Below, in pieces: positions 4,110-23,593 of a stretch of DNA of 64,000 bases. The translations under genes were made by a program, and so were the position numbers. Origin of the DNA: Bdellovibrio sp. (GTDB lineage Bacteria; Bdellovibrionota; Bacteriovoracia; Bacteriovoracales; Bacteriovoracaceae); the NCBI GenBank assembly GCA_016187935.1, contig JACPIU010000010.1:124001-188000 (forward strand), written 5' to 3'. Numbering within the stretch: the stretch's first letter is position 1; every line of letters starts with the position of its first letter. The notes beneath the pieces were generated by a model, which saw only the letters and a program-made list of their open reading frames with translations, was not told the DNA's origin and did not search any database.

Positions 4110-4117
4110 AAGTCACC

Positions 4118-4234: not shown

Positions 4235-4251
4235 AATAGAAAACTTGTCTT

Positions 4252-5463: not shown

Positions 5464-5518
5464 GACCTCTCCTCCTTGAGAATTCGTGTTTGGATCTACT
5501 GTAAAATGAAATGCGTCC

Positions 5519-5549
5519 ACCACGTCCGAATCGGACGTGGTTTTCTTTG
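5519..5549 (+). terminator. Perfect 10-bp hairpin with T-run
   Basis: ACCACGTCCG (5519-5528), loop AAT, CGGACGTGGT (5532-5541), then TTTCTTT on the plus strand. It has the form of a rho-independent terminator for plus-strand transcription, which could shield the element from transcripts entering from the left. It also sits about 56 bases upstream of the recombinase start on the minus strand and could be an operator or attenuator there. No plus-strand gene precedes it. Confidence 0.5.
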
Positions 5550-5576
5550 CTAACTAGCTGAAATTATTCGAGATCA

Positions 5577-5607
5577 TGGTGGAATCGAAGTAAATCGAAC
5601 GAACGTC
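5577..5607 (-). repeat. Degenerate ssrA 3'-end copy (att relic 2)
   Basis: This stretch matches the ssrA 3' end (10591-10621) at 22 of 31 positions. On the minus strand it retains GACGT, the T-loop GTTCGATT and TCCACCA, but the acceptor strand has drifted. Left and right flanks share short blocks with relic 1 (TAGCTGAAA, TTCGAG, TTTGTAGC, AAAATAGC). It lies between the divergent recombinase and a small membrane protein gene and probably marks an old element boundary. Confidence 0.5.
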
Positions 5608-5649
5608 TATAGTTAGGAGATTTGTAGCACTAAAATAGCATCAGTTTTG

Positions 5650-5943
5650 TTATTTTGATTTTCGATTACACAGCTCTTGAGCATTCACTTCTTTCTTTCG
5701 GCAAGTATTATCAACCTTATCCCAGCAGCCGCCACTATCTAAGCATGAGTCAACTTCAAAAAATGTTTTCACCCTTTCATAGGCAATACTTTTGAATTTG
5801 AAGCCAATTAAGATAAATAGAAATAATGGTAGAATCAGAAACCAATACTTTACGAGGAATGCTAAAATATTATTAATTTTTTTCCACTTGGATATGAGGT
5901 TATCAACTCTCGTTTCATTACTGTTTTCACTCTGCTTACTCAT
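5650..5943 (-). CDS. Small membrane protein with Cys-rich tail
   Basis: The 97-aa product has a polar N-terminus, one strong membrane segment at about residues 27-47 (ILAFLVKYWFLILPLFLFIL) and a C-terminal tail with five cysteines: DSCLDSGGCWDKVDNTC, then NAQELC. The tail looks like a short disulfide-stabilised module found on small single-pass membrane proteins. Topology would put the cysteines outside the cytoplasm. The family and function are not recognised. It lies downstream of the AbiE-like pair but about 95 bases apart, so co-transcription is uncertain. Confidence 0.6.
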   Translation of the reverse strand: MSKQSENSNETRVDNLISKWKKINNILAFLVKYWFLILPLFLFILIGFKFKSIAYERVKTFFEVDSCLDSGGCWDKVDNTCRKKEVNAQELCNRKSK

Positions 5944-6038
5944 TACTATTATTCACTTCATTGGCAGTTCTTCTCTGCCTGGGGTCATGTTTTTTTTACG
6001 ATTCCAAACAAATAGCTACCGATTTCTTTTTCCACTTT

Positions 6039-6785
6039 TTATAGGACAGGGAAAGCTTTTTTCAAGATATCCAAAATTTCAGACTTATTTAAAGCAGTCC
6101 CGATTAATTGCTTTATTGTTAAATCTTCCATTATTTCAATTGCAGCACAAATCTGTAAGAAGTCCTTATTCGGCTGGCCAGAAAGTGTTACCTGTTGCGC
6201 CGTCAATGTTTGAGCTAACCTCACAACATCATTTCTGTGCTTGTTGATCTTTTTCTTTTCCTCTTTTCTATCCGTTAACTCTCTAAAGGCCCTCGCCTTA
6301 AGACAAATGTTTGCATAAGAATTAATGATAGAATATCCGGCATTGCTCTTTACTGCATTGGCCTTGATCAGATTAAAATACTCATCATCTAATAGAATGG
6401 CCGATAGCTGGGCCACTGAATCATTTTGAATCGGGATAATATACTGACCTTGCTTAAGTTCAATTTCGCTATCCGCCTTGGCGAAAATCTCCACGATCTC
6501 GGGGAATTCTGTGTTTTGAGGTTCTGAAAAACGATAATACTGAGGAGTACTTTGCGTCTTTTCGTTCACTTCATATTTCCCAAGGAAAATATACTCGCTG
6601 ATTTTTTTATTTAGCTCAGTTGAGTTATTGGTGAAAAGAACCATATCAATATCTTTGGTAACGCGGAATTCTAAGTCTTCATCCTCAAGTGTTACTGAAG
6701 CTGCGCCACCACCTATAATGACGTAGTCATTTTCATGATTTTTGAAAAAGTCAGTAAAATGTTTAATTCCTCTGGGTAGTGCCAT
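6039..6785 (-). CDS. AbiEii-like nucleotidyltransferase toxin
   Basis: The 248-aa product is a likely toxin of a type IV toxin-antitoxin pair. Family members are nucleotidyltransferases of the DNA polymerase beta fold that modify tRNA or similar targets and cause growth arrest or abortive infection. Residues about 20-50 carry the hallmark YVIIGGGAASV followed by RVTKDIDMVLF, i.e. GG...D-x-D. The rest is helical (AVKSNAGYSIINSYANICLK). The start has AGGTGA just upstream, and the putative antitoxin stop lies 8 bases before it, so the pair is one operon. It could instead belong to the related DUF6036-type nucleotidyltransferases. Target and partner specificity are inferred. Confidence 0.7.
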   Translation of the reverse strand: MALPRGIKHFTDFFKNHENDYVIIGGGAASVTLEDEDLEFRVTKDIDMVLFTNNSTELNKKISEYIFLGKYEVNEKTQSTPQYYRFSEPQNTEFPEIVEIFAKADSEIELKQGQYIIPIQNDSVAQLSAILLDDEYFNLIKANAVKSNAGYSIINSYANICLKARAFRELTDRKEEKKKINKHRNDVVRLAQTLTAQQVTLSGQPNKDFLQICAAIEIMEDLTIKQLIGTALNKSEILDILKKAFPVL

Positions 6786-6793
6786 TCATTCAC

Positions 6794-7792
6794 CTAGGCC
6801 TTTATTCCAAGATTGGTGATCATCTGTTCTAATGCGATCTGCACTCTCTCATCACTATGCGCTCTTAGCAAAAAATATAGCTCAACGGGATTTAAAAACC
6901 CATCATCTTTAGCAAAGAGTCTTGGTGATTCCTTTAAAACATCACAAACAAACTGCGGTTTGCCGAAATCACCGACGGGATCACCTGACTTTTGAATCTG
7001 CTTAAATTGTTGATTCGTCATCGCAAGATATCTCATTTTAGGTTCGGCCAGATCAGAATAATGAGCTAAGGCCGTCTCACCTGAGAAAATATAATCGGCA
7101 TTGGTCATGTAGTAACTTTCAATTGTTTTGGAGAATGGCTTCAGCGGTTGCTTCTTGAGTCTATCCCAAATTTCTTGCCTATTTTTAAATGTAACCAAAC
7201 GATTAGGCCCCGCCCCTTTGGTATCAACGAAATCCAATTCAATAAGATGATTAATTGCTTGTGCCAATTTTGCTTTGGAGCACTTAAACTTATAACCTTC
7301 AAGAATAAACTCTAGCTGGCTGAGATTGAATCCCTCTCTCATGATAAAGGCGGTCAGGTATCCCGCGAGTAACTTTAACTCAAATGGTGAAATGGCCTCT
7401 TCAAGCTGTCTTGTTTTCTGAGGTTTTGTTTCTCGATAATTTAATAGTTTCAATCCAAGCTTCGGTGCAAAAATTGTTTTTTCTTTATATACAAAAGGAA
7501 CATTATTTTTCACAAATAGTGGTCGATATTTTGGATTCACATCATCCGCAACAAGAAGTGCTGGCCCCCCAAGCTTGCTTTCAACTTGTGCAAGGATGTT
7601 GGTTAGCTGATCAAACTCCAACTCCTTCAAAGGCCTTACCAAATACACGCTGTGATTCTTCGCTAAATTGAAAGCGTAAATTTGCACTGTTCGACTGATC
7701 CATGCTGGGAAATTATCCAAAGCTACGGGGAGAGCTTTTCGTTCTCCACTCTTTCCAAATACAAATCGTTCTAATAAGCGATGCGCTTCCAT
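6794..7792 (-). CDS. AbiEi-like winged-helix antitoxin/regulator
   Basis: The 332-aa product is the partner of the downstream nucleotidyltransferase. The start is ATG 7792 (MEAHRLLERFVFGKSG); the frame stays open to 7930, but that extension crosses an AT-rich promoter and an inverted repeat and has biased composition. The middle part has helix-rich segments consistent with a winged helix (LSQLEFILEGYKFKCSKAKL, then INHLIELDFVDTKG). The C-terminal half (YIFSGETALAHYSDLAEP) matches the 'sGetAL..ys.l..p' pattern of AbiEi/type IV TA antitoxin C-terminal domains. It probably represses its own promoter through the inverted repeat upstream. Confidence 0.65.
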   Translation of the reverse strand: MEAHRLLERFVFGKSGERKALPVALDNFPAWISRTVQIYAFNLAKNHSVYLVRPLKELEFDQLTNILAQVESKLGGPALLVADDVNPKYRPLFVKNNVPFVYKEKTIFAPKLGLKLLNYRETKPQKTRQLEEAISPFELKLLAGYLTAFIMREGFNLSQLEFILEGYKFKCSKAKLAQAINHLIELDFVDTKGAGPNRLVTFKNRQEIWDRLKKQPLKPFSKTIESYYMTNADYIFSGETALAHYSDLAEPKMRYLAMTNQQFKQIQKSGDPVGDFGKPQFVCDVLKESPRLFAKDDGFLNPVELYFLLRAHSDERVQIALEQMITNLGIKA

Positions 7793-7815
7793 AATATAAA
7801 TAATAACATATATAT

Positions 7816-7838
7816 ACGTATTTGCAAATGTTATACGT
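7816..7838 (-). promoter_or_regulatory. Inverted repeat upstream of AbiE-like operon
   Basis: ACGTAT (7816-7821) and ATACGT (7833-7838) flank an inner palindromic ATTTGCAAAT, about 24 bases upstream of ATG 7792 in a very AT-rich stretch. AbiEi-type antitoxins are known to bind inverted repeats in their promoters, so this is the natural candidate operator. Binding is not demonstrated. Confidence 0.4.
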
Positions 7839-7917
7839 TTAATTATGTATAAAGTGTTGTAAATATATAAATACCTGTATCTACTATATTTTTCTGGTCT
7901 ATGTTTGACGAAAACAA

Positions 7918-7971
7918 GAGGTGTAGCCAAAATGGGTCGTTTTTAGCGTTCGCTCATTTTGGCCACACCTC
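7918..7971. repeat. Long imperfect inverted repeat after truncated integrase
   Basis: The arms at 7918-7936 (GAGGTGTAGCCAAAATGGG) and 7953-7971 pair at 17 of 19 positions around a 16-base loop. It sits 7 bases past the stop of the truncated integrase and upstream of the AbiE-like promoter. There is no T-run directly after either arm, so it is not a standard terminator. It could be a recombination or excisionase site, or a foldback remnant of the element. Confidence 0.55.
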
Positions 7972-7978
7972 TGCAAAA

Positions 7979-8740
7979 CTATTTAAATCTAAAAAGCTCC
8001 ACAACATGACCCATAATGGCCGCATCACTAGGCAAGAACCTAAGTCCATCAGTTGCCCCTCGCTCATCCACCCCCGCTAGGCGTAGGTAGATTTGCATGG
8101 TTTTGATGTCCTTCCAGCCGCCGATCTTCATAACCTTGGTCATTTCAACACCGTCGGCAAGCAACTGAGTCGCGAAGCAGGCCCTTAGCGTATGGAATTT
8201 TACAGAGGGCAAACCGGCACCGCGTAGAAAACTTCTGAGCGGCTTGCTTTGTTCGCCTCTGTTCCAGTCGGTGAGTCTTGGTAGCAAATGCCTTTCCGAT
8301 CCCGTCATACTTTTCAGCTCCACGAGGAGCTGGTTAAGTTCGGATGAGATAGGGACATTTCGCCAATATCCGGCCTTGGTGGATTTTGTTTCACGAGTTC
8401 GCTTATTGAAAGACTTCGTGACTCGCACGAGCTTGTTTTCAAAATCGACGTCGTTCCACTCAAGGGCGAATAGCTCACCACTTCGCATACCTGTTAAAAG
8501 TGCCATGGCCCAGATGGGATACCATGTGTGGTTTTGTTTACGGGCCTCATAAAGAAACTGTCTGATCTCGGTGAGGTTTAAGATTTCAGGAAATTTGTCC
8601 TCACGCTTATCAATCTTTATTCCATGCATGGGGCTGATAAAGGCATCTTTAATATGCCGATGATCGATGCCCCACTGGAAAACTACATTGATGGTGTTTT
8701 TCACCTTGGCAATGAAGCTTTTCGACTTTCCCGCTTTCAT
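7979..8740 (-). CDS. N-terminally truncated tyrosine recombinase
   Basis: The 253-aa product has a well-kept catalytic domain: GMRSGELFALEW (first Arg), the KAGYWRNVPIS hairpin region, FHTLRACFAT (HxxR), GGWKDIKTMQIYLR (Trp in place of His, then the nucleophile Tyr). The start of the core-binding domain is present (KVKNTINVVFQWGIDHR), but the arm-binding N-terminus of about 100-150 residues is absent. The frame is open a further 23 codons upstream (GTCRVSKVGRHYESIEAL) until a TAG created inside the 11-base tandem repeats at 8810-8842, so the gene seems cut at the repeats. It belongs to the phage-type integrase family and was probably the mobility gene of an ssrA element. It may be inactive. 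Confidence 0.75.
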   Translation of the reverse strand: MKAGKSKSFIAKVKNTINVVFQWGIDHRHIKDAFISPMHGIKIDKREDKFPEILNLTEIRQFLYEARKQNHTWYPIWAMALLTGMRSGELFALEWNDVDFENKLVRVTKSFNKRTRETKSTKAGYWRNVPISSELNQLLVELKSMTGSERHLLPRLTDWNRGEQSKPLRSFLRGAGLPSVKFHTLRACFATQLLADGVEMTKVMKIGGWKDIKTMQIYLRLAGVDERGATDGLRFLPSDAAIMGHVVELFRFK

Positions 8741-9775: not shown

Positions 9776-10093
9776 TTAATAACTCTTTCTTACGTCGAGC
9801 AAAGTCAATCGGGCCTTCATTGTTCCACGAGCATCTTCAAAATGTTCTTTTCGATAGACCAGAACGTAACCGCTCGACAAAAGTGGCGCAACTCGTTCTT
9901 CACCAGTTCGTTGCTGATATAAATTTAGATTTTTTGAAATTTCGCTTATCTTATCTTGAACTTCACGAATGAATCGAACTCCCAAGCCGTGGTTGCCATT
10001 ATAATTTCCCCAAGCTTCTCTCTCAATGGCCCTTTCAATAAATCGTTCTTCGGAGTCACCATACCATTCGATCTCATCAGCTACTTCCATCAT
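9776..10093 (-). CDS. RelE/ParE-family toxin
   Basis: The 105-aa product is a putative type II toxin. It has the compact RelE/ParE pattern: N-terminal helices, GLGVRFIREVQDKISEIS, then a beta-sheet segment ERVAPLLSSGYVLVYRKEH and the C-terminal LTLLDVRKSY. Relatives either cleave mRNA on the ribosome (RelE) or poison gyrase (ParE); this sequence does not say which. ATG shares one base with the antitoxin stop (TAATG), so translation is coupled. The module lies between two copies of the ssrA end. Confidence 0.75.
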   Translation of the reverse strand: MMEVADEIEWYGDSEERFIERAIEREAWGNYNGNHGLGVRFIREVQDKISEISKNLNLYQQRTGEERVAPLLSSGYVLVYRKEHFEDARGTMKARLTLLDVRKSY

Positions 10094-10377
10094 TATACAA
10101 CTCGCTTACGGGCCTCGGCTTTATCAATCAGGTTATTTAATTTTTCTACTTTGCTCTCAAAATCGGCCATCAATTTTTCAGGATTATAGCTAGTTCTTTT
10201 GGCAATGCCTTCTGATTTTTCTAGCCGTGCCATCAGAGTAAAAAAATATTCCTGCGTCATCATCACTTTTACATCTTGGCCGCGATGAAAAACTTGGAAG
10301 ACATCACCATCTTTCATTTCTGAAATTAGATTCGGGTCGCTTTTTAGGTCGCTAAAATTCAGGGTTCTCTTAAACAT
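10093..10377 (-). CDS. Phd/YefM-like antitoxin of the RelE/ParE-like pair
   Basis: The 94-aa product starts at ATG 10377, chosen because GGAGG lies five bases upstream; the frame extends to 10461 without a binding site. The N-terminal part (FSDLKSDPNLISEMKDGDVF, then VKVMMTQEYFFTLM) has the 'l..dp..i......v.i...g...v.lm..eyf' pattern of Phd/YefM antitoxins, followed by a charged C-terminal tail (ESKVEKLNNLIDKAEARKRV) likely to wrap the toxin. It precedes and overlaps the toxin gene. It probably autoregulates, but no clear operator is seen. Confidence 0.7.
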   Translation of the reverse strand: MFKRTLNFSDLKSDPNLISEMKDGDVFQVFHRGQDVKVMMTQEYFFTLMARLEKSEGIAKRTSYNPEKLMADFESKVEKLNNLIDKAEARKRVV

Positions 10378-10505
10378 ACTAACCTCCAATGGCTTATTAA
10401 TAGACCATTTACTATCCATTATAGCGCCATTATCGGCATTTTTCAATCGCTTGTTAATCATTACACTATCCTAAAACCCTATACTTACAGGGCATTACAA
10501 GTTTC

Positions 10506-11126: not shown

Positions 11127-12023
11127 ATGGGTTTCAAGCGTTTACAATTTGGTTTTCTCCTTCTCTTGGCCGCTATCGTACTTCCGGGATGTGCGACAAA
11201 ATCACTCCAAAAGATGACCGATCAGGAATTGACCAAAATGCTGATGGAGAGAAGCGGTGTGGCCACATCCTTGACCACGCTTCCTCAATCAGTGGATGAG
11301 GGGTTGGAAAAACAGCGGGATAAATTTAAATCTCAGCCAGAAATCTATGAACTGATGGTGAAAAGCTTTCGCGAGGCTTTTGAGCCGAATCGGTTACTCA
11401 AAAATATGGAAGATGAGATCAATCTTAAGCTCAATCGCCAGGACAAGTTGGCGGTGCTTGAATGGTACGAGCAATCACTCGGGCGTAAGGCCTATTTGAT
11501 GGAAGGCTTCATGGATACGCAGCAAGGTCAAGATGCTTTTAATACTTTTATCGATTCCTTTGAAAAAGACAATAAGACCCCCGATCGGGAGCTACTGGAA
11601 TTTGCCGCCAAGTTGGCGCGAGAAACGCATGCTCTACAGATCATGGTGGACACAATGAGTTCTGTCAGCCTTGGATTGCTCACGGGATTTAACGGCATTC
11701 TTCCGGAAAAACAGCGCATGAATATTTTTGAAATTGATCAGCGCATTCTTACCATCCGACAACATCTGTCGGAACAGCTAGCGCCCAGCATAGTGTTGGT
11801 GTTGGCCTTCACCTATAAAGACTTGAACCAAGAAGAACGCGCGCAGCTATTGGCCTTTTATTCCCGCGGAGTGGGCAGAAAATACATCACCACGCTTTCA
11901 CAGGGCATGAGTTCTAATCTTGAGCGTGCTGCTATGAGAGTCGGGGATGGTGTCGCTCGTGGTGTCGCCGATCTACCCGAGAAAAGTACTTCAGGTCGCG
12001 CTCCCGCTTCCATCAAAAAATAA
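11127..12023 (+). CDS. Lipoprotein of unknown function (DUF2059-like)
   Basis: The 298-aa product has a lipoprotein signal peptide ending LPGC (Cys22). The mature part is almost all helix, with two segments that resemble each other, LNRQDKLAVLEWYEQSLGRK (about 106-125) and LNQEERAQLLAFYSRGVGRK (about 234-253). Both match the 'lt.eel..l..fY.sp.Gkk' signature of DUF2059-type periplasmic proteins, here present twice. It is likely anchored in the outer membrane. It precedes the RND export operon by about 100 bases and could be part of it or separate. The role is unknown. Confidence 0.7.
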   Translation: MGFKRLQFGFLLLLAAIVLPGCATKSLQKMTDQELTKMLMERSGVATSLTTLPQSVDEGLEKQRDKFKSQPEIYELMVKSFREAFEPNRLLKNMEDEINLKLNRQDKLAVLEWYEQSLGRKAYLMEGFMDTQQGQDAFNTFIDSFEKDNKTPDRELLEFAAKLARETHALQIMVDTMSSVSLGLLTGFNGILPEKQRMNIFEIDQRILTIRQHLSEQLAPSIVLVLAFTYKDLNQEERAQLLAFYSRGVGRKYITTLSQGMSSNLERAAMRVGDGVARGVADLPEKSTSGRAPASIKK

Positions 12024-12121: not shown

Positions 12122-12457
12122 ATGCGCATGGATGTCCGCCGCCACGATGACAAAATCCTGCTCACGGTATTGGGTGACATTGATGATTATACTTATCCGT
12201 TATTTGCACACGAACTGGAAATGCTTGATCGAATTGCCTCTCAAAATCTGTTGATTAATTTGGAGGGATGTCCTTTTCTTAATTTTCAGTGCATCCGTCT
12301 GATGGTGGATACTCATCGTCGTTTTCATCAGGCCGGCAGGCGGGTGGTGTTTCGATTGGGAAAAGAGAAACGTACCGTCAGCGAGTTAATGAAAATCATG
12401 ACACTCACCATGGGGTCCGAAGGGCTTAATATCGATGATGGGGCGACAGGAATCTAA
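12122..12457 (+). CDS. STAS-domain protein (anti-anti-sigma-like)
   Basis: The 111-aa single-domain product matches the STAS fold: DKILLTVLGDIDDYTYPLFA, then NLLINLEGCPFLNFQCIRLM where the phospho-Ser loop of SpoIIAA-type proteins would lie, then GRRVVFRLGKEKRTVSELM. The usual phosphorylated Ser/Thr in 'D.SG...l' is replaced (NFQCIRL), so it may act as a binding domain and not a phosphoswitch. It is the first gene of the export operon, with TolC-like ATG one base past its stop. Why a STAS protein is co-transcribed with an RND pump is unclear; control of the pump or of an associated regulator is a guess. Confidence 0.65.
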   Translation: MRMDVRRHDDKILLTVLGDIDDYTYPLFAHELEMLDRIASQNLLINLEGCPFLNFQCIRLMVDTHRRFHQAGRRVVFRLGKEKRTVSELMKIMTLTMGSEGLNIDDGATGI

Positions 12458-12458
12458 T

Positions 12459-13829
12459 ATGAAAATAAAGTTAGGATTAATTCTGTTGGGTGTGCTTGCT
12501 TTGGGTGAGAGTTATGGCATCACACTGAAAGAGATTGAAAATCAACTACTAGAGCAAAATGCGGATTTGAAATTAAACGAGTATAAGCTGGGGTTTGATC
12601 GGGAGCAATTGATCGGCACCAAGGCACTTCACTTCCCCTCACTGACACTCAATGCGGGCGTGTCTACCGGCAAGGATCAAGAGTCAACCGTGAATCCATA
12701 CTCGTCCGCCGGTTCGCCAGGCGTCAGCGGAGGTCCTGCTATTTCCGGTTCCACAGGGACAACGCAATCAGTGGTGGTTGAACGTGATGCTTGGACTTCT
12801 GATATCAGTATGTCTTATGTATTTTTCTCGCGCTTTAATATCACTGCTAATGTTAATAGTGCTAAAAATACTTTGCGTGCCTCAGAGCTTACTAACAATG
12901 CTGCTGCTATTGAAAAGCGCTCCCAACTTTATCAACTCCTGCTGGAAATTTCCGCCTTGAGGGACATGCAAACCAGTCTTGATCGTGCTGGCCAGGTTAT
13001 GTCTCGCATACGAGAGCAACGTCAACGTTCTCATAATCTGTACGGAAGGGGCGATCAACTCCAGCTTGATACCAAGTACTATGAGTTGGAACATCAAAAA
13101 GCACGTTTAAGTGGTGGGCTGATCATGGCACGAGAGGCCTTGAAGGATTTAGTGCCCGGATTGAAGACCGAAGTCCTGGAAAAAACTCCCACGATTAAAA
13201 TTAGCTATGATCTTCCGACCTTGGAAAAAATCCAAGACAGCTATGAGAGGGAAAATTACGAAATAGAAAATATGAATTTGGCCATTGATACTTACCGAGG
13301 CTACCAAGAATCGACTTCATGGGAACGACCTTGGGTACCCTCCATCATGTTGACTTCATCCTATTCCGAGCAAGGTGATTTTAAAGGAGGAGAGCCCTCC
13401 GATGATTATCGCGCGAGTATTCTGTTCTCCTTCAACGTCTTTGATGGTTTTCAAAGCAAGGCCCGTCGTGCTCAGGCAACCTTGGCCCATCAAATGGCGA
13501 TCAAAAGGAAAGAATCGGAAGTGCAAAAAAATATGATTTACATCGCCAAACTCTATACCGATGCCATGACCGCCAAGACCGAATTTGCCTTAAAGAACGC
13601 CATTGCGGAGGAGAAAAAACACAAGCTGGAGCAGACAAAAATAATTCGAAATAGTGGTGCCGGCACAGAGCTAGAAGAATCCCTTATGCGACTGGAATGG
13701 GTCAATGCCCAACTTGAGGCCCATCAGGCCAATAAAAATTATCAACAATCCATTTTAAATCTGGCCATCAAGGCCAATCAATTTAACCAAGTTTCTGTCA
13801 TAGAGATGGAGTCACAGAATGGGAAGTAA
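12459..13829 (+). CDS. TolC-family outer-membrane channel
   Basis: The 456-aa product is an outer membrane efflux protein that would form the exit duct for the RND pump. ATG 12459 is preferred, with AGGA upstream and a typical signal peptide MKIKLGLILLGVLALGESYG; a longer frame from 12435 overlaps the STAS gene. The mature part has long helices interrupted by beta segments, with two outer-membrane efflux repeats: ALHFPSLTLNAG and YVFFSRFNITANVNSAKN in the first, PWVPSIMLTSSYSEQG and SILFSFNVFDGFQSKARRAQ in the second. An insert rich in Ser/Gly (about 65-95) sits in the first repeat. The C-terminus overlaps the adaptor gene by 11 bases. Confidence 0.85.
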   Translation: MKIKLGLILLGVLALGESYGITLKEIENQLLEQNADLKLNEYKLGFDREQLIGTKALHFPSLTLNAGVSTGKDQESTVNPYSSAGSPGVSGGPAISGSTGTTQSVVVERDAWTSDISMSYVFFSRFNITANVNSAKNTLRASELTNNAAAIEKRSQLYQLLLEISALRDMQTSLDRAGQVMSRIREQRQRSHNLYGRGDQLQLDTKYYELEHQKARLSGGLIMAREALKDLVPGLKTEVLEKTPTIKISYDLPTLEKIQDSYERENYEIENMNLAIDTYRGYQESTSWERPWVPSIMLTSSYSEQGDFKGGEPSDDYRASILFSFNVFDGFQSKARRAQATLAHQMAIKRKESEVQKNMIYIAKLYTDAMTAKTEFALKNAIAEEKKHKLEQTKIIRNSGAGTELEESLMRLEWVNAQLEAHQANKNYQQSILNLAIKANQFNQVSVIEMESQNGK

Positions 13830-14490
13830 AATTTTGATGGTCTTTCTGGCATTGCTTGTCTTGATCCCGATTTGCAGGGCCCAAGCTACCGCCCAACTGG
13901 AGCGCACGGTGTTGATCTATGGGATTGTGAAACCCAAAAAAATGAGTACGGTGGTGGCCATTGGACAAGGTTTGGTTAACCAAATTTTCAATCAAATCGG
14001 CGATGAAGTAAAAAAGGGAAGTGGACTCCTTCAGGTTTTTGAACGTGATACGGTGAGAAATTACAGCAACACACTTGATGGCCGAGTGGCAAAAGTCCAT
14101 GTCACGCTAGGTGCCGCAATTTCCCCCGGCATGCCTCTGGTTACGGTGGTCAATGATGGAGAACTCTATTTGGAATTCGGTCTTTCCCCTTCCCAGGCCC
14201 AACTGCTCAAACAGGGAACCACCCTTCGTCTTCCATCCCACAAAGAACCGCTTGGTATCTTGGAAAAGATTTCTCCCATCGTCGATCCCGAGAGTGGTTC
14301 AGTGGTGGCGCTTTCGAGTGTATTACAGACGAAAGATTTCTTGATCGGGCAAGTGCTGACCGTGAGTGTGAGCTTGGGTGTTGCCGACTGCGATCAGGTA
14401 GTTGCCCTCAAAGAGGTGAATCAGTTTACGACAGGTTGGAAAGTGGATTTTATTTCTGACGATCGGGCATGTTTAAAAAAGGTTCTCTAA
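13819..14490 (+). CDS. Short RND membrane-fusion (adaptor) protein
   Basis: The 223-aa product is a periplasmic adaptor linking pump and TolC-like channel. After a signal peptide ending near Ala21 it shows the lipoyl/barrel-sandwich half motifs: IGQGLVNQIFNQIGDEVKKG (about 48-67) and DGRVAKVHVTLGAAISPGMP (about 87-106), then a beta-barrel domain (LYLEFGLSPSQAQLL). The long alpha-helical hairpin that usually separates the two lipoyl halves is missing, and the whole protein is little over half the usual 350-400 aa. The pump may therefore contact the channel differently. The start overlaps the preceding gene, so the order STAS-TolC-adaptor-pump is one operon. Confidence 0.75.
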   Translation: MGSKILMVFLALLVLIPICRAQATAQLERTVLIYGIVKPKKMSTVVAIGQGLVNQIFNQIGDEVKKGSGLLQVFERDTVRNYSNTLDGRVAKVHVTLGAAISPGMPLVTVVNDGELYLEFGLSPSQAQLLKQGTTLRLPSHKEPLGILEKISPIVDPESGSVVALSSVLQTKDFLIGQVLTVSVSLGVADCDQVVALKEVNQFTTGWKVDFISDDRACLKKVL

Positions 14491-14505
14491 TATTTAAAAA
14501 TTTCT

Positions 14506-17466
14506 ATGATCGAAGCATTTATACGGAAAGGCGTTTTCACCCTCAGCATCAATCTGATGGTTTTACTGGCGGGGTATTTCACTTTGCCGTATATCGCCAA
14601 CGAATTTATTCCTTCAATTGAAATCCCTGCCGTTGCCGTCATTATTCCTTCTCCCATGATGCCCAAAGATAAGATGACCTCCCAAGTTGTCTCACCACTT
14701 GAACGTGCATTTCTTCAGTCAGGGGAAATTACCAGTGTTGAAGGTGTGATCGAAGATGGTAAGGTCATCCTGATTGTTTTCTATAAATGGGATTTTTCTC
14801 CCGAAGAGGCCTTGCGAAAAGCACGCCAGATTGTGGATAATGCTCCACGAGTGCAAGGGACCCTTGATCCCATTTTTATTCTCCATCGTCCCAGTAATAA
14901 CCCTATTTTTCGTGTCGCCCTCTATGGGAAATCCATTCAGGATATTTCCGAGAAGGCTCGCATGATTGCGCCTGAAATTGAGCGCATTGCCGGTGTTGCT
15001 CAAGTCATTATTTCCGGGGATGTTGCCAAGGCAATGGTGGCGGAAGTTCATCCCGAAGATATGGCCATGGCAGGGATTAATTCCGGTGACATTGTTAAAT
15101 CCGCCAAGGAATTTTGGAACCTCAATTTGTACTTGAAAGGCGAATCCTATGATCATCTCCTGACAAATAATATTAAGAGTACTGCCCAGCTTATCAATCT
15201 TCCCGTTGTTTCATCCCAAATCAAAAAAATTATTCCTTTGGGACATTTTGCCACGATAAAAAACAATGAAGGCTCGGTAAACGTGCTCATGAATGGTGAT
15301 TCACCGGCGGTAATTATTGAAGCCTTAAAGGGTGCCGGCGCCGATACACTTTCGATCGTTGCCAATATTCAAAATATTTTAAATAAGTTCAGCAATATTC
15401 CGGGTCTTAACCAAAAAATCATTTACAACGAAGCGGATAAAATCCGCGAGGGGCAAGATAGTGTGTTGAGCAATTTCTATGCAGGACTGGCCCTCAACTC
15501 TTTTATTCTTATGATCTTTCTCGGTTCACCTGTGGGTGTGTTGGTGGCCTCGGTTATTTTTCCCACATCCTTAATTGGTTCTCTTCTTGCCATGAAGTTT
15601 TTTGGCATTTCCATCAACCTTTTCAGTCTCAATGGTTTTTCTCTGGCAGTCGGAATGATCACAGATGCCTCCACCGTAATTTTGGAATCTGTTACAAGAC
15701 GGGTGCAGGCAGGCATCGATCTCTATAAGGCCTGTGTTAGTGGAGTGAAAGACGTGAGTTTGGGGATTGTTTCATCAACCCTTGCCTCTGCGGGAGTGCT
15801 ACTACCCATTGCCATGCAGAAGAACATCACCAGTAAACTATTTTCAGATTTGGCCTTGACAGTGGTTTCTACTCAGATTCTTTCACTTCTGGCGGTTTTT
15901 AGTTTAGTACCCTGGCTCTGTTATAAGGTGCTCGGGCGCAAATCTCGCCCCAATCGTTTCAGCAAAATTATCTTTTCCGTCGGCCCGACTATTGTTGATT
16001 TTTCTGTGAAGTATTCCAGTCAGATTCAAAGTTATTGTCGCTCAAAACCCATTCGACAATTAATCGCGTCAGCGATCGCCATGTCCATTTGCCTTGGCAT
16101 GCTTATCTTTATGCCTAAAACCGAATTTCTTCCAATGGTTAGTAGTCGTGTTTACTCTCTGGATTATCCTATCGACCGCCGCGAGTATGAAGGCACAGGC
16201 GATGCGGCCATGAAAACGATTGCAAAAACTCTTTCCTCCTGGACAGATTCAAATTGGGCCATCACTAAAAAAGGCACTAATGGAATTGAAGCGCTCTTTG
16301 AGTTGAAAGATTCCTTGCCATTAAAAGAACTTGAGAATCGTCTCAAAGAAGTTGATTTAAGGCGTGAACGCCTGCACATTTTACCTGTCGGTCCTGCCCC
16401 TACGGGAGAGGCCATGGGTTACGATGGTCTGATTTTTGTCTCGGAAGAATTGAGTGCCAAGAATCGCCATGATTTTATCAACTCACTTTGCCAGTCAGAG
16501 AAAATTTCCGAATGTCTAGGAGATGATTTTTACAGTATGACCGAGAACAATTTGGTTTCCCAGCACATTTTAACTCATGCTCTTGGCTCAAATGAAATTG
16601 AAACTTTGGGGCAAGTGGTGATTCCTTTGCACAGAGTCGACTTGGCCGATCTGGGAAGACTCAATATTGATTCACCCTTGGAGCTGTCTGTGCAATTTTC
16701 GGGTTTGCTGCTCAATCTTCCCTTACATGTGAAAGAAAAGGGGACTGCCATTTTGAGTGATTTATATGATGTTTCTTTTGGCAAAACTAGGTCTCTCTTG
16801 AACCGCCTGAATAATAAAAGTTTTTCTTCGCTGTACTTTAAGTTAAAGGATTCCACTCTGGGAGAAATTGATTTGCAGATAACTGAAATCGCCAAAAAGT
16901 TGGGTATTCCTGCGGATGAAATCTCTCCTCGCGGTGGGATGGAAACAATGAATGAAAGTTTTTCCAGCATGATTGTGGCCTTATGTCTGTCGGCCTTAAT
17001 TGTATTTACTATTTTGATGCTGCAATTTAAATCGATCACCCAGTCTGTAATTATTATGAGCACAATTCCTTTGGCCTTGGGTGGGGCGATTATCGGACTC
17101 CTTGTGATGCATGAAACCCTCAATGCTTCAGTCATGGTGGGCCTGATTCTCCTGGTCGGCATCATCGTCAATAACGGAATTTTTCTGGTTGAGGCCACCA
17201 ATCAAAAATTGGAAGAAGGAAAATCAAATTCTCAGGCCATCATTGAGTCGGTAAGCGAACGTACGCGACCTATTCTCATGACCAGCTTCGCTACCATTTT
17301 TGGCATGCTACCCACTTTACTAGTTGGAGGTGAGGGGAGCGAACTCTATCGTGGCATGGCGGTAGTTAACATTTTTGGAATGCTCACGGGGACATTCTTT
17401 TCACTTTGTATAACTCCAATGACAATTGAATATTTTCTTCCTAAACAAAATGGTGAAAGTCAATGA
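14506..17466 (+). CDS. RND-family efflux pump subunit (AcrB/CzcA superfamily)
   Basis: The 986-aa product is a proton-driven inner-membrane exporter. The N-terminal helix (FTLSINLMVLLAGYFTLPYI) is followed by the porter motif PSPMMPKDKMTSQVVSPLER, a first periplasmic part, and helices 2-6 at about 325-490. TM4 reads GFSLAVGMITDASTVILE: of the two aspartates of AcrB (VDDA), only the second is kept (TDA). Next come a second periplasmic part and C-terminal helices with LLVGIIVNNGIFLVEATNQ, where the AcrB Lys is Asn as in heavy-metal and other CzcA-type pumps. The length is near family average. It is coupled by a 4-base overlap to a PII-like gene and then to a degenerate RND protein. The substrate is not predictable. 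Confidence 0.85.
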   Translation: MIEAFIRKGVFTLSINLMVLLAGYFTLPYIANEFIPSIEIPAVAVIIPSPMMPKDKMTSQVVSPLERAFLQSGEITSVEGVIEDGKVILIVFYKWDFSPEEALRKARQIVDNAPRVQGTLDPIFILHRPSNNPIFRVALYGKSIQDISEKARMIAPEIERIAGVAQVIISGDVAKAMVAEVHPEDMAMAGINSGDIVKSAKEFWNLNLYLKGESYDHLLTNNIKSTAQLINLPVVSSQIKKIIPLGHFATIKNNEGSVNVLMNGDSPAVIIEALKGAGADTLSIVANIQNILNKFSNIPGLNQKIIYNEADKIREGQDSVLSNFYAGLALNSFILMIFLGSPVGVLVASVIFPTSLIGSLLAMKFFGISINLFSLNGFSLAVGMITDASTVILESVTRRVQAGIDLYKACVSGVKDVSLGIVSSTLASAGVLLPIAMQKNITSKLFSDLALTVVSTQILSLLAVFSLVPWLCYKVLGRKSRPNRFSKIIFSVGPTIVDFSVKYSSQIQSYCRSKPIRQLIASAIAMSICLGMLIFMPKTEFLPMVSSRVYSLDYPIDRREYEGTGDAAMKTIAKTLSSWTDSNWAITKKGTNGIEALFELKDSLPLKELENRLKEVDLRRERLHILPVGPAPTGEAMGYDGLIFVSEELSAKNRHDFINSLCQSEKISECLGDDFYSMTENNLVSQHILTHALGSNEIETLGQVVIPLHRVDLADLGRLNIDSPLELSVQFSGLLLNLPLHVKEKGTAILSDLYDVSFGKTRSLLNRLNNKSFSSLYFKLKDSTLGEIDLQITEIAKKLGIPADEISPRGGMETMNESFSSMIVALCLSALIVFTILMLQFKSITQSVIIMSTIPLALGGAIIGLLVMHETLNASVMVGLILLVGIIVNNGIFLVEATNQKLEEGKSNSQAIIESVSERTRPILMTSFATIFGMLPTLLVGGEGSELYRGMAVVNIFGMLTGTFFSLCITPMTIEYFLPKQNGESQ

Positions 17467-17756
17467 AAGCATTAATGTTGGTGTTTGATTCTGAGTTGGC
17501 CGAGGAAGTTTTTACTTTGATGAAGCTGGCGGAGATTATCAATTACACTTATTTTAAAGGTTTGTATGGATCGGGAAATCAGGGAAAAAAAGAGGGAAGC
17601 ATTACCTGGCCTGGTAATAATGAGCTTCTCCTGATGCTGCTTAATGAATCCGAGCTTGAACGTTTTAAAGTGGTGGTAAAGGAATTTAAGAAAAATAAGG
17701 GCGTCCCCACCGGATTGCTGTTCTTCCACTGGCCGCTAACGGAAATGATTGTATGA
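17463..17756 (+). CDS. PII-like small protein linked to RND pump
   Basis: The 97-aa product has the alternating strand-helix order of PII-like ferredoxin folds: MKALMLVFDSELAEEVFTLM, IINYTYFKGLYGSGNQG, NNELLLMLLNESELERFKVV, and PTGLLFFHWPLTEMIV. The 'YT...g.yG.G...' loop resembles DUF3240/PII-like proteins that accompany CusA/CzcA-type RND pumps. ATGA overlaps on both sides (17463-17466 and 17753-17756) put it in strict translational coupling between the two RND genes. It may sense a ligand and tune the pump; ligand and mechanism are unknown. Confidence 0.6.
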   Translation: MKALMLVFDSELAEEVFTLMKLAEIINYTYFKGLYGSGNQGKKEGSITWPGNNELLLMLLNESELERFKVVVKEFKKNKGVPTGLLFFHWPLTEMIV

Positions 17757-20413
17757 TTTTAAAATATTTAACCAAGATTGCCCAGGCCCGCCGTATCGTT
17801 TTCACGGTCTTGATGCTTCCTGTGGTTTTGGCCATTTTCTTTTCCAATTATAAATTCAACATTATGCCGGAATCACCCTACCTTGAATATACCATTACCA
17901 TCGAAGCGCCGGGAATGACCGCCAATGAAATTGAACGAAAAGTTACCATTGTGGCGGAAAAAGTCATGAACGGTCTTCCGGCACTTTTAGTTTTGGAATC
18001 GGCCACCTCTCACGAGAAAGCGGTGCTCAATTTAAAATTCAAGGCAAAAACCAAGGAAGGGACGACCTTTTTATTTATCCAAGAAAAAATTGACCGTCTC
18101 AAAATATTACTACCGTCAGAGGCCAAGCGCATAATAGTCTCTGCCGTCAAGCAACTCGAGTATCCGGACATTGTTATTCAAAATCCCAATTCGACTCAAG
18201 TTGTAGATTTGTCGCGTAAGTTTGCCAAATACAAAAAATCCATTCGACAGTGGAACCCGAATCTGGACGATGACAGTTTGCGACCGCATTTCCAAATTGT
18301 TCCAGACCTGGATAAAATTCTTCAGCATGGGTTGGGAATTGATTCTGTTTGGAAGGCCCTGAAAATTAATAGCTTTACCTATAATCTTGGGCAGAAACAA
18401 GATTTGGTGTATTTTGTCAGTGGGACTTTTCAATCTGTCGCACAAGTTGAAAGTGTGGTGATCGGTGCCAAAGGTACTTTTCTCATTCGTATCGGAGATG
18501 TGGCGAGGGTTTCGCTTATTCCTGCCATTATGCCGGAAACCGTAAAAGTCTGGTTGGACCATTCTGAAGTATCGTCACTGCGCTTTTACTTTTGGGCCAA
18601 GAGTGCGCTTAAGGATTATGACATTTCCTTTCCTTTTATCACGGCATTTTTGGATGGACTCTCGCGCGTGCTCCTTGCCATTGTTGCTCTGGTCGTTTTG
18701 CAGCTCATGGCAGGTCATTTGGTATTCAAAAATTATAAGGCCCAAATCAGTTTTTTGGTACTGGATGGTATAGTGATTTTACATTATCCATTTTGGCTGA
18801 CTGTCATGGAAAAGGAAATTTCGTTGATTGATTTTCCTGCCATGTTATTCACCATCATTTTGACTTCGTTTTTTTGGATTGTTCTACAAGGTCGTATTCG
18901 CAGCTATTATTTTCCTTCCAAGTTACATACCTATATACGCCGCCAGCTTCCCCAGGCGGTATTGTTCACCTTGGCGGAGTACTTGCCAACGGTCGGTATC
19001 TTGCTCGGTAGTCTGCTAGTCCTTATGCTTCCTTTGCTTCTCACTGATATCAATGTCATCGCGCAATTTATTACCTTACGCTTTTTGGTTTATGGCGTTC
19101 CTCTGACTTTTGTAACTCTGATAATATTGGCCCTGTTTGCGCCTTTACAGTGGGTGATAAAATCCGGCGAAAATCTAACTTCCTTCTCCCACGTGGGAAA
19201 ATTTACGATTAAAACCTCGGCGGCGTTTGGTTACATAGTGATTGTACTCTTGCTCTTATCTCCTCTGGCCTGGCGTTTATTAAATTATGGAATCAAAAAT
19301 CCTGCTTCCCATCCCATGGTGAGTCATTTTCGTGGTCATGGAGATGTGATGATTTACCAAGAGAAATCGCAGACCAATTCTTCGGCGTCAGTGTCCAATA
19401 GTGAATGGCAAATTTCACCAGTGAAGAGTTTAGTTTCAAGTTGGTTGGCACGTTGGGAAGTTACACCTCAAGGCCTATCCTTGCTCCCTGGCGTAGATCT
19501 TACAAGCTTTAAGTTTGCTCTGGCAGACTTCTTCTCCCACGCAACTATGTCTGTCATGCAACCGATAGATTACAATATTAATGTCGCTCTTCCAATCTTA
19601 AATGCCTTTGAGTTTTCGAAGCTCAGTCTGGCACAAAAAGATAAAAATGCGTTACCTTTGTCAATAATTACCAATCAGAATTTAGTGGCGGAGGAGTCTT
19701 ATATTTTCCGTTCTCAGCTTGATCGTCGCAATGAAAAAAATTCCCTGGCGGAAATGCAGTATCGGCGTTCGCTTCCCTTAATGAAAATAGAGAACAGCAA
19801 AGATAATACCCTCTTGGCCCCTTTCAGTGCCTATCTTGCTTCGCAATTTGAAGACTATAAACGCAATGGTCCGTTTGCTCTTCTTTTTCTTTTTATTCTC
19901 TTGGCCTTGTATCTCAATTCTTTTTACCGTGCCGGCATTTTGCTCTCATTAGGTATGATAAGTAATGCCGTCTATCCTTTCTTCAAAGTGATTCTTCAAT
20001 CATCATTTCATCTTGATTCACTGTGGCCAATAACACTACCGATGTGGGCCACACTGGCGGCAGTTCTCTTGGTATCTCGTTCGATCGATACTGAACGAGG
20101 ACGGGGTAATGATCGCGATGAAGTCTTGCGGGAAGCTGAAATGCATATTTATCCGACAATTCGCGCTGCCATTATCTTTCTCGGCAGTGCAGTCTTTCTT
20201 TGCGGTGCCATTGATCGTCTTTTCATTTCCCAGGGACAGAATTTTTTCCTGGAATGTATGGGGTTGGGATTGGCGGTTTTAGTGATGGGGCATATTGGGA
20301 TCAATCATTTCTTCAGACTCTACTATTTGGTCGCCCAAATTTTCTTGGAGAGACAGGCCTTGAAAGTGATCCTGCTTTATTACCGCTTTCGTGCCAAAGG
20401 CATGAGGAAGTAA
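17753..20413 (+). CDS. Degenerate second RND-type protein
   Basis: The 886-aa product keeps the RND layout but not the proton-relay residues. The N-terminal helix and first periplasmic part are clear (MPESPYLEYTITIEAPGMTA, then NEIERKVTIVAEKV), and helices follow at about 295-545. The TM4 segment that should hold the aspartates reads PAMLFTIILTSFFWIVLQG, with none. The second periplasmic part is short and rich in Ser/Thr. The C-terminal bundle (FALLFLFILLALYLN, then LWPITLPMWATLAAVLLV) also lacks the Lys/Asn motif. It is probably a non-catalytic partner forming a hetero-oligomer with the 14506 pump, though decay cannot be excluded. The open frame of full length argues for selection. Confidence 0.7.
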   Translation: MILKYLTKIAQARRIVFTVLMLPVVLAIFFSNYKFNIMPESPYLEYTITIEAPGMTANEIERKVTIVAEKVMNGLPALLVLESATSHEKAVLNLKFKAKTKEGTTFLFIQEKIDRLKILLPSEAKRIIVSAVKQLEYPDIVIQNPNSTQVVDLSRKFAKYKKSIRQWNPNLDDDSLRPHFQIVPDLDKILQHGLGIDSVWKALKINSFTYNLGQKQDLVYFVSGTFQSVAQVESVVIGAKGTFLIRIGDVARVSLIPAIMPETVKVWLDHSEVSSLRFYFWAKSALKDYDISFPFITAFLDGLSRVLLAIVALVVLQLMAGHLVFKNYKAQISFLVLDGIVILHYPFWLTVMEKEISLIDFPAMLFTIILTSFFWIVLQGRIRSYYFPSKLHTYIRRQLPQAVLFTLAEYLPTVGILLGSLLVLMLPLLLTDINVIAQFITLRFLVYGVPLTFVTLIILALFAPLQWVIKSGENLTSFSHVGKFTIKTSAAFGYIVIVLLLLSPLAWRLLNYGIKNPASHPMVSHFRGHGDVMIYQEKSQTNSSASVSNSEWQISPVKSLVSSWLARWEVTPQGLSLLPGVDLTSFKFALADFFSHATMSVMQPIDYNINVALPILNAFEFSKLSLAQKDKNALPLSIITNQNLVAEESYIFRSQLDRRNEKNSLAEMQYRRSLPLMKIENSKDNTLLAPFSAYLASQFEDYKRNGPFALLFLFILLALYLNSFYRAGILLSLGMISNAVYPFFKVILQSSFHLDSLWPITLPMWATLAAVLLVSRSIDTERGRGNDRDEVLREAEMHIYPTIRAAIIFLGSAVFLCGAIDRLFISQGQNFFLECMGLGLAVLVMGHIGINHFFRLYYLVAQIFLERQALKVILLYYRFRAKGMRK

Positions 20414-20466: not shown

Positions 20467-21840
20467 ATGAGGACATTATCGCGCATCATCGTATTAATAT
20501 TTGTTCTTACGTATGTATCGGCCCATGCGTATTGGAAAGATGATTTTCCTACCACTCCTTTTGAAACGGTAACTAAAGAAAAAATCAAGGATTTAGAAAA
20601 ACAAATCAAGACCTTAATCCCCATGTGCCTGGGAAAATTGGAGACAAGTTTTGGAAAAGTCTGGAAACGTAATCGCCATGGATTTCCCAAATTCTTAAGT
20701 GTTACTGTGTTGAGTGAAAATGAGGCACAGGCTTTTGAGGGATTTGCAGAAACTCACGGTTCACTTTTTGTCGGAATGCTCTTTAATCCATATCCTTTTT
20801 TAAGCGGGCATACCGATTTAGAAACCACCGTTTGTCATGAAACAGTTCATGCCTATTTTCGAAAACATATGAGTTTCGGAACCTATTTCCGCTTACCTAA
20901 ATGGGCGCGAGAAGGGAGCGCCGTCTATCTGGTCAATCAACTGTCTCATAAAGAACGTCGTGCCTTGTATCGTCAATGGTCCGGTGAAAGAAATGCCCAA
21001 TTAAATGGACTCGAAGGTGCGCATAGTTTGGAAGATTATTTTGAAGATGCTCTGGCCTTTACTTTCTTAGACGAAAAGTACTCCGCGGTTCAACGTGTGC
21101 TATCTCTTGTGCTTGAAGGAAAAGATATTTTCGAAGCTATTGAACAGGCCAGCGGACTTCGTAAGGAGATTTTCTTAAGGGAGGCCTTGGCCTACGCCCA
21201 GAATTATATTGCTCGCCGTTTACAGAGCTTAAACAAGGAAACCCGTGAGGCCATCACCAATTGGTCGAATCCCGCTGCCCGGAACAGGGCCTCCATCGAA
21301 TTCATGCGGCAATTCAAATCCGGTATTTCCCAGGCCGGTTTGCCCAAGACGCTTGATTTTGCCTTAAGTGTGGCATTCTCTTTAGATGTTTATTCAATTA
21401 CGAGTGATGAACGGGAACTTATTCATGATTACGAACGAGTTCTTAAAGAGATTCCTAGTATTGAGTATGGTTCTAATCTCGCGAATGTTCGTTATAAACT
21501 GGGCGGTCTTTACCTTAATATTGGTGATTACAATAAGTCCTTGCACTACTACACTTTGATCTTTAATGAAAATATAGAAGTCCCTATTTTGCAGCAATCC
21601 GCCACCGCTGGAATTTTGCGCTCTTATGTCGGTCTGACTGATTGGCGAAAGGTTTTGGCCTGGTCCGAACGTGAGCGTGGTTTGCATGAGAGTAATGTGG
21701 TGGAGTATCGCTATTATCGCGGACTTGCTTACCAGGCCATGGGCAAATCCAAGAAGGCCAGAGATTTGTTTGAATGGGCCTGTTTGAGTAATGCAAACCG
21801 CCGCTTTAAAGAAAAGGCCTGTCAGGCATTCAACCAGTAG
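20467..21840 (+). CDS. Exported metallopeptidase-like protein with TPR region
   Basis: The 457-aa product has a signal peptide (MRTLSRIIVLIFVLTYVSAHA). A gluzincin-type zinc site is visible: TTVCHETVHAYF (HExxH, about 125) and, about 20 residues later, WAREGSAVYLVNQ supplying the Glu ligand, as in peptidase MA-like proteins. The C-terminal third holds TPR-like helices (YGSNLANVRYKLGGLYLNIG, then YRYYRGLAYQAMGKSKKARD). It would act in the periplasm. It starts 53 bases after the degenerate RND gene with no terminator seen, so it may belong to that operon. The substrate is unknown. Confidence 0.7.
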   Translation: MRTLSRIIVLIFVLTYVSAHAYWKDDFPTTPFETVTKEKIKDLEKQIKTLIPMCLGKLETSFGKVWKRNRHGFPKFLSVTVLSENEAQAFEGFAETHGSLFVGMLFNPYPFLSGHTDLETTVCHETVHAYFRKHMSFGTYFRLPKWAREGSAVYLVNQLSHKERRALYRQWSGERNAQLNGLEGAHSLEDYFEDALAFTFLDEKYSAVQRVLSLVLEGKDIFEAIEQASGLRKEIFLREALAYAQNYIARRLQSLNKETREAITNWSNPAARNRASIEFMRQFKSGISQAGLPKTLDFALSVAFSLDVYSITSDERELIHDYERVLKEIPSIEYGSNLANVRYKLGGLYLNIGDYNKSLHYYTLIFNENIEVPILQQSATAGILRSYVGLTDWRKVLAWSERERGLHESNVVEYRYYRGLAYQAMGKSKKARDLFEWACLSNANRRFKEKACQAFNQ

Positions 21841-22021: not shown

Positions 22022-23593
22022 ATGAGAACGCCAATGTTTAAAAAAACTATTCCCTTGATTGCCATGCTTACACTGGCCGTGGGGGCAACAGTTAATTCTG
22101 TTTACAATCTGCAATCTGAACAACATTCGCACAAGCTATTCCGGGGTATTGCTAGTGCGGAAGGGGATGCAGTCCCAGCTACTGTTAACAATACTGTCAA
22201 CGCTGTCTCCATTAATATTATTACCATCTACCATAACACCGCTGAGCTACAGGCCAAGCAGGCAGAAATAGACCGCTTGGTAAAAGAACATAATGAGCGT
22301 GGCGCGCGTTTAGTCGAATTGGATAGTCGCTTAAAACAAGTCGAAACGGACTTGGCATCAGAAAAAGCACGCGCTGATCGCGCCACCACAGAACTAACGA
22401 CCGAAAAGGCCCGACTGGAAGAAGAGCGCGCAAAATTTGCGGCAGAAAAGAAAACTCTTGAAGATCAAATTGTTGCCCAATCTCAGGCCAATAAAGATTT
22501 GTTGGCCCAGATTGACGCCCTTAGAGCGGAAGGTGACGCCAAAACCAGCAAAATAGTAAAACTTGAAAGTGATAAGGCCGAGTTGGAAAAGGCCAAGGCC
22601 GATTTAGAAAGGCAACTTGCCGAGGCCGGATCTGCTAATACAGCTCTGCGGGCCGAAAAAGAAAAAGTTGATGCCGAACTTGAGAAAACTAAAAAAGCTT
22701 TAGCGGACGAAACGCTGGCCCGTACTGGACTTGTGGCGGAAAGAGATGCTCTGATTCAAAACTTGAGCGTGAGAGATGCTTCCTTGAAAGAAAAAATCAA
22801 GGCCCTGGAAGAGTCCCTGGCCGCCAATACCGAGCTTCGTGCCAAGCTCGAGTTAGCGGAAAAAGATTTGGCCGCTGCTCGCACCAATATTGCTGAGCTG
22901 ACGACAAAGATTGAGGCCCTCACTAAATTGATTGCTGAGAAGGATGCCACCATCGCTGAACGCGACCGCACCATTGCTCAGAATGCAGCTGATCGCCAAA
23001 AATTAGTGCAAGAGATGTGTAAACAGAAGCAAGATCTCGAAAGATTGGGATTAGATGTTCAATCTTTGATTAAAGATAAAGAAAAAGTTCTTGCAGAAAT
23101 TAAAGCTAAAGATGAAGTGATCAATGGAAAAGACGCTGAATTTAAAAAGAAAACGGAAGAAGCCGAAGCCAAGCATAAGGCCGAATTGGCAAAAGTGCAG
23201 GAAGAATTCGAGCGTAGTATGGTCGGTATGACGACCATGTTTAAGTACATGATGATGCAAAATATGGGAATGGTTGGAATGAATGGTATGAATGGTATGA
23301 ATGGTATGAATGGTATGAATGGTATGAATGGTATGATGCTGACCAACCCTTTAAATGGTGGCGGTGCTGATAATCAATTCATGATGCAACTTTTAATGAG
23401 CCAGCTCTTAATGAACCGTAGTGGTGGAAGTGCTTTTGGTGGCTTCAATCCAGGCGGTTACTACTCTATGCCAACACCTTCTCCTTATCTTGGTGAACAG
23501 TACGGATCATTCGGTGATTACTATCCGAGAGTAATGCGCAGTTATGGAGACAGGCATCAAGCTGGATCACCTTTTTTTAACTTTGGTTCTTAA
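22022..23593 (+). CDS. Exported long coiled-coil protein with MNG repeats
   Basis: The 523-aa product has an N-terminal hydrophobic segment (IPLIAMLTLAVGATVNSVY) that could be a signal peptide or anchor. Residues about 75-400 are one almost unbroken heptad coiled coil, rich in Ala, Glu, Lys and Leu (e.g. KADLERQLAEAGSANTALRA). There follows a Met-rich stretch (MTTMFKYMMMQNMGMVG), six MNG tripeptides encoded by identical 9-base units, and a Gly/Asn/Ser/Tyr-rich tail (GGYYSMPTPSPYLGEQYG). No family is recognised. The layout suggests an extracytoplasmic structural fibre or scaffold. The composition is unusual but codon use matches neighbours. The start has GGAGG five bases upstream. Confidence 0.75.
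   Translation: MRTPMFKKTIPLIAMLTLAVGATVNSVYNLQSEQHSHKLFRGIASAEGDAVPATVNNTVNAVSINIITIYHNTAELQAKQAEIDRLVKEHNERGARLVELDSRLKQVETDLASEKARADRATTELTTEKARLEEERAKFAAEKKTLEDQIVAQSQANKDLLAQIDALRAEGDAKTSKIVKLESDKAELEKAKADLERQLAEAGSANTALRAEKEKVDAELEKTKKALADETLARTGLVAERDALIQNLSVRDASLKEKIKALEESLAANTELRAKLELAEKDLAAARTNIAELTTKIEALTKLIAEKDATIAERDRTIAQNAADRQKLVQEMCKQKQDLERLGLDVQSLIKDKEKVLAEIKAKDEVINGKDAEFKKKTEEAEAKHKAELAKVQEEFERSMVGMTTMFKYMMMQNMGMVGMNGMNGMNGMNGMNGMNGMMLTNPLNGGGADNQFMMQLLMSQLLMNRSGGSAFGGFNPGGYYSMPTPSPYLGEQYGSFGDYYPRVMRSYGDRHQAGSPFFNFGS
23279..23332 (+). repeat. Six perfect 9-bp in-frame repeats (MNG coding)
   Basis: ATGAATGGT is repeated six times without a mismatch inside the coiled-coil gene. 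Perfect conservation at third positions implies recent copy-number change by slippage. Each unit adds three residues, so changes keep the frame. Confidence 0.9.

Follow-up and report, generated by a model that had tools for sequence, protein, structure and literature searches.

A conserved two-RND efflux operon with a PII-like gene and a relay-less second RND protein in Bdellovibrio-like bacteria

Described systems and the operon compared

RND pumps are understood through a model in which three equivalent protomers rotate, each cycling through the same three states. Two adjacent RND genes together with an adaptor gene are found in MdtABC and MuxABC (E. coli, P. aeruginosa), and MdtB2C is a heteromeric pump whose two RND subunits have unequal roles (PMC7015380, PMC4338810, PMC4107485). 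Relay mutations have been studied in both subunits of MdtBC, and those in MdtB hurt more than those in MdtC (PMC4338810). An RND pump operon containing a PII-domain gene is known from Geobacter sulfurreducens, where PII-NG stands beside CzcABC (GSU2134-2137) and a role as metal sensor has been proposed for it (PMC7726332). An adaptor lacking the alpha-hairpin belongs to the RND pump BesABC of Borrelia burgdorferi; the available part of its description reports one RND protein and does not describe a PII-like protein, a STAS protein or a second RND (PMC3807786).

The operon considered here comprises six tightly packed genes on the + strand at 12122-20413 of the window, the 64,000-nucleotide stretch of a Bdellovibrio sp. 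contig that was analysed:

12122..12457, + strand: STAS-domain protein, 111 aa, without a phosphorylatable serine (STAS, 22.1 bits)
12459..13829, + strand: TolC-like outer membrane efflux protein (OEP), 456 aa (OEP, 71 bits)
13819..14490, + strand: periplasmic adaptor (MFP), 223 aa, without alpha-hairpin (HlyD_3 and RND_mfp matches)
14506..17466, + strand: RND1, 986 aa, the putative energised pump (ACR_tran, 376 bits; AF2 model)
17463..17756, + strand: PII-like protein, 97 aa, of the PG0541 transporter-associated family (NF045581, 50.5 bits)
17753..20413, + strand: RND2, 886 aa, RND homologue lacking the canonical proton relay, second porter half shortened (ACR_tran, 60 bits)

The preliminary description of this DNA had read the locus in the same way: all six frames are present and open, and the PII-like gene overlaps both flanking genes by four bases (17463-17466 with RND1, 17753-17756 with RND2). 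An alternative OEP start, ATG 12435, would give 464 aa; ATG 12459 looks the better choice, because it results in a signal-peptide-like N-terminus and lies one base past the STAS stop codon. Promoter and terminator scans gave matches at chance level only.

As in MdtABC/MuxABC, two adjacent RND genes are accompanied by an adaptor. MdtB and MdtC, however, are about 50% alike, whereas RND1 and RND2 share 13% identity over the N-terminal half; moreover, RND2 is relay-less and shortened, so that two full-length, relay-bearing RND proteins of the MdtBC type are not found here, and the two RND genes are separated by a PII-like gene. The PII-NG/CzcABC operon differs in that its pump is of the metal (CzcA) type, its PII gene comes first and it has one RND. 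The PG0541 family (NF045581) resembles the present case, in which the family cut-off is passed and a transporter adjoins, but its name is silent on a second, relay-less RND. BesA is a structural precedent for the hairpinless adaptor, a feature known here from alignment.

The operon is thus a real, conserved and unusual two-RND efflux variant and not a new class. The preliminary description knew of no characterised pump with exactly this set. The PII link and the hairpinless adaptor both have published precedents, and the one-aspartate relay is common to the sister pumps described below. What is new, as far as the open-access papers searched go, is the selected, relay-less and shortened second RND.

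Distribution, accessory proteins and the sister operon

A survey with gene context covered the Bdellovibrionota. The order STAS-OEP-MFP-RND1-PII-RND2 is unbroken in all nine loci with full context (the window counted), and in two further loci cut by contig ends the remaining part agrees; RND1, PII and RND2 are adjacent in 11 of 11. Within the family, RND2 was found in nine of 129 genomes, in six genera, and RND1 in exactly the same nine; these counts are lower bounds, since the search scored the best candidates per genome only and several genomes are incomplete. Both the six-gene co-occurrence that the preliminary description had proposed as a check and the adjacency and co-occurrence of two RND genes typical of MdtBC are therefore seen. 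A tenth RND2 match in the family (genome G201) was rejected as a generic full-length RND. A scan of GTDB-species genomes with a single peptide pattern, whose locus count is likewise a lower bound, returned ten RND2 loci, all in Bdellovibrionota, two of which (L053 and L054) belong to more divergent Bdellovibrionales. The named relatives are mostly Bacteriovoracaceae, and the closest, whose RND2 is 81% identical, is the MAG Bdellovibrionales bacterium GWA2_49_15. In their supported clades, the trees of RND1, PII and RND2 are consistent with one another, which is what inheritance as a block would produce. The set is scattered among Bdellovibrio-like bacteria but conserved.

A related arrangement, which we call the sister operon, occurs in another family of the same phylum at five loci, L037, L038, L039, L040 and L041 (genomes G039, G047, G070, G076 and G084, respectively). 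Its order is STAS, SpoIIE-type phosphatase, OEP, hairpin adaptor, RND, PII-like protein and a full-length second RND; the phosphatase is confirmed by Pfam in L037, L038-L041 have a similar-sized gene at that place, and the contig of L040 ends inside the second RND. The order of the shared genes and the PII-like gene between two RNDs are as in the window. In contrast, the sister STAS carries an S-S-[SA]-G motif, the sister adaptor (376-389 aa) has the hairpin block, and the second RND is full-length and retains the TM4 Asp and the TM11 motif. The sister operon is apparently an undescribed case of a partner-switch module encoded together with a two-RND pump. In L037, a CAAX-protease-like gene lies downstream of it.

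The PII-like protein of the window passes the cut-off of NF045581 (PG0541 family transporter-associated protein), with 50.5 bits where 45 are required, and stays below threshold against the P-II model. PDB hits to engineered chalcone isomerases had E values of 0.003-0.01 and were put down to chance, a weak PG0541 match in genome G023 was dropped as no RND gene lies nearby, and a search for plasmid-borne homologues found none. The adaptor measures 214-238 aa in ten loci, all of which show a gap of about 70 columns at the hairpin block when aligned with the full-length sister adaptors; the hairpin, whose lack had been noticed in the single sequence, is absent between the lipoyl half-motifs, giving a BesA-like architecture. 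The STAS protein of the window reaches 22.1 bits, just under the Pfam cut-off of 22.6, and its orthologues 32-41 bits. All nine proteins from the Bacteriovoracaceae operon have a hydrophobic residue where the phosphorylated serine would be, and there is no phosphatase gene between STAS and RND2; the serine and the phosphatase gene that characterise a SpoIIAA-type partner switch are both found in the sister operon. A classical partner-switch role for this STAS protein is unlikely, because the phosphorylatable serine has been lost in the lineage. The preliminary description had suggested regulation by PII-like and STAS components; PII-like proteins beside transporters are a family already named.

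The Bacteriovoracaceae operon is probably a reduced derivative of a sister-type operon. A parsimonious history would start from a two-RND, PII-linked and phospho-switched pump; in the Bacteriovoracaceae lineage, the phosphatase and the STAS serine would have been lost, the adaptor would have shed its hairpin and the second RND its relay. The RND2 profile does not discriminate between the sister RND1 (56-88 bits), the sister RND2 (74-78) and unrelated RNDs (50-76), so that its scores neither favour nor disfavour a descent of RND2 from the second RND of the sister operon.

The two RND proteins

RND1 matches ACR_tran with 376 bits, and its best NCBIfam model is RND_permease_2. Against the heavy-metal subfamily model for CusA/CzcA, TIGR00914, it scores 163.6 bits, under the cut-off of 701; HAE1-type models outscore the CusA/CzcA models, and therefore the substrate is not fixed as metal. 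The proton-relay positions of AcrB, D407, D408, K940, R971 and T978, correspond in RND1 to T386, D387, N889 and, in TM11, R919 and T926. D387 is invariant in an alignment of 14 RND1 proteins. In the sister operons, both RND1 and the second RND have V-D in place of D-D in TM4, N or D in TM10 and RxRPxxxT in TM11. Having a single TM4 Asp is normal for every RND1 and for the full-length second RNDs of these operons. The single aspartate that the preliminary description had pointed out is indeed present; it is the ordinary, invariant position of AcrB D408, accompanied by equivalents of R971 and T978, and not a defect or an oddity. The idea of RND1 as a half-crippled pump was rejected on the same grounds.

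The AF2 model of RND1 (14 sequences, pLDDT 79) superposes on AcrB-type pumps with Z 49 and an rmsd of 3.4 over 957 aligned residues, and conservation is highest at TM4 and TM10-12 (0.80-0.89). RND1 shows what defines the RND protein of a tripartite pump, namely twelve helices, a pair of porter halves, the Asp in TM4 and the relay motif in TM11, and the adaptor and outer membrane channel are encoded in the operon, in an order constant in the nine complete loci.

RND2 matches ACR_tran with 60 bits (1e-16) over residues 9-255 only. A profile comparison relates it to RND1 with 98.8% probability over the N-terminal half, where identity is 13%, and its AF2 model (mean pLDDT 63, modest confidence) superposes in the membrane part on AcrB and SecDF with Z 26-29, some 380 residues between positions 3 and 867 aligning at 3.5 A. 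By sequence homology and predicted fold, RND2 belongs to the RND superfamily. All twelve membrane helices are retained, as is the first periplasmic half. Judged by the hydrophobic segments, the stretch from TM7 to TM8 falls about 90 residues short of its RND1 counterpart, and the second porter half is modelled poorly (pLDDT about 30-40).

The relay motifs of TM4, TM10 and TM11 are absent from all 11 RND2 proteins in a motif search. In an alignment of seven of them, the D407 column holds S, L or C and the D408 column F, V or L; the K940 column is uncharged, R971 is replaced by residues other than Arg and T978 by residues other than Thr. Alignment with the AcrB positions and motif search thus agree that RND2 lacks the canonical proton relay, as had been claimed for the window alone. 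Nor was disruption found, the other outcome that the preliminary description had named as speaking against its view: the frame is open in 11 of 11 loci, with a near-constant length of 869-894 aa. Furthermore, pN is 0.11-0.15 as against pS of 0.63-0.79, and dN/dS is about 0.06-0.09 where dS could be computed, similar to that of OEP and approximate, as dS is near saturation. RND2 is a real protein under purifying selection, and its interpretation as a pseudogene or frameshift product was rejected on open frames and selection. It diverges faster than RND1. TM11-12 are among its least conserved parts (0.36-0.37), while its invariant residues (among them R383, E409, D779, E781, R782 and R784) are concentrated in the PN half and in loops on the cytoplasmic side, a pattern expected from the loss of proton coupling with assembly or regulatory contacts kept. 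RND2 also has ionisable residues that are conserved within its membrane helices or at their edges: H344 in TM3 (H in six of eight non-redundant sequences and D or Q in the others), D360 where TM4 begins (D in seven of the eight and H in the remaining one) and the invariant D755 where TM10 begins. No described case of an inactive or degenerate RND subunit was found in open-access papers, most subscription journals being outside the scope of this search.

Proposed exporter, its alternatives and the neighbouring genes

We favour, at a probability of about 0.5, a single tripartite exporter that is powered by RND1 and contains RND2 as a proton-uncoupled partner, with the PII-like protein on its cytoplasmic face. 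RND1 would be the energised pump, using a one-aspartate relay of D387 with R919 and T926, and would partner the BesA-like hairpinless adaptor and the TolC-like channel. RND2, a pump homologue that is relay-less and about 90 residues short in the second porter half but still has its twelve helices, a conserved cytoplasmic face and the first of the two periplasmic halves, would most likely sit beside RND1 in the inner-membrane assembly as a structural or regulatory subunit. The PII-like protein may bind the cytoplasmic side of RND1/RND2 and tune the pump to a metabolite or metal signal, and the STAS protein, not phosphorylatable at the usual site, may be a docking domain remaining from an ancestral STAS-SpoIIE switch. 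That RND1 and RND2 share one inner-membrane assembly is suggested because they co-occur and adjoin, and because of the sister operon and the precedent of MdtB2C. Several of the invariant charged residues of RND2 lie at the cytoplasmic face, where the PII-like protein would act; the conserved face is by itself no evidence for PII binding. A more specific form of the proposal, which we hold only tentatively, is an obligate hetero-oligomer with one class of protomer that is never coupled to protons and lacks part of the porter, serving as fixed scaffold and PII-gated regulator.

SecDF and MmpL are not AcrB-like trimer pumps, and the membrane part of RND2 matches their structures too; much of its second porter half is gone, and the RND1 model is by itself a complete AcrB-type protomer (Z 49 over 957 residues). 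It is therefore conceivable, though less likely than the joint exporter, that RND1 forms an ordinary homotrimer and that RND2 works separately, as a monomer or self-assembled; it would sense or deliver a substrate or lipid and have the PII-like protein as its partner on the cytoplasmic side. It also counts against the joint exporter that the C-terminal periplasmic half of RND2 is modelled with low confidence (pLDDT about 30-40), so that a place for it in a trimer is no more than a possibility. Strict co-occurrence, adjacency and the sister operons with two pump-like RNDs nevertheless favour joint assembly. The conservation of H344 (6/8), D360 (7/8) and D755 (invariant) might possibly allow another form of coupling, which would make the pump one of two differently coupled active subunits. 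We regard an RND2 so energised as unlikely: H344 lies in TM3, D360 and D755 are close to where TM4 and TM10 meet the periplasm, all three are off the relay site, and TM11-12 are poorly conserved. As to a decaying, functionless gene copy, the lost relay, the missing stretch of porter and the faster divergence would fit it, but it is effectively refuted by the uniformly intact frames, the low dN/dS and the residues kept invariant across deep divergence.

If the proton-uncoupled partnership with RND1 were true in its obligate form, it would break the rule that all RND protomers cycle through the same three states. A partner under selection that lacks the usual proton route would amount to a natural experiment, one that bears on the number of active protomers required by a pump, and the locus would show how a PII-type signalling protein is wired into an exporter. 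The relay-bearing sister operon of the same phylum offers a direct comparison.

Outside the operon, a gene for a DUF2059-like lipoprotein (11127-12023) precedes it, and one with a zinc-protease-like HETVHAY motif and TPR repeats (20467-21840) follows RND2; the sister genome G002 is the only one in which both are likewise conserved next to the operon. Further downstream, 22022-23593 encodes a coiled-coil protein with a methionine-asparagine-glycine repeat, inside which a 9-base tandem repeat of about 6.9 copies lies at 23275-23336. On the minus strand, two small overlapping genes at 9776-10461 look toxin-antitoxin-like by eye, and Pfam gave no match for either. Finally, positions 1-8000 have a GC content of 0.36-0.39, against 0.40-0.48 in the rest of the window, and are possibly acquired DNA.
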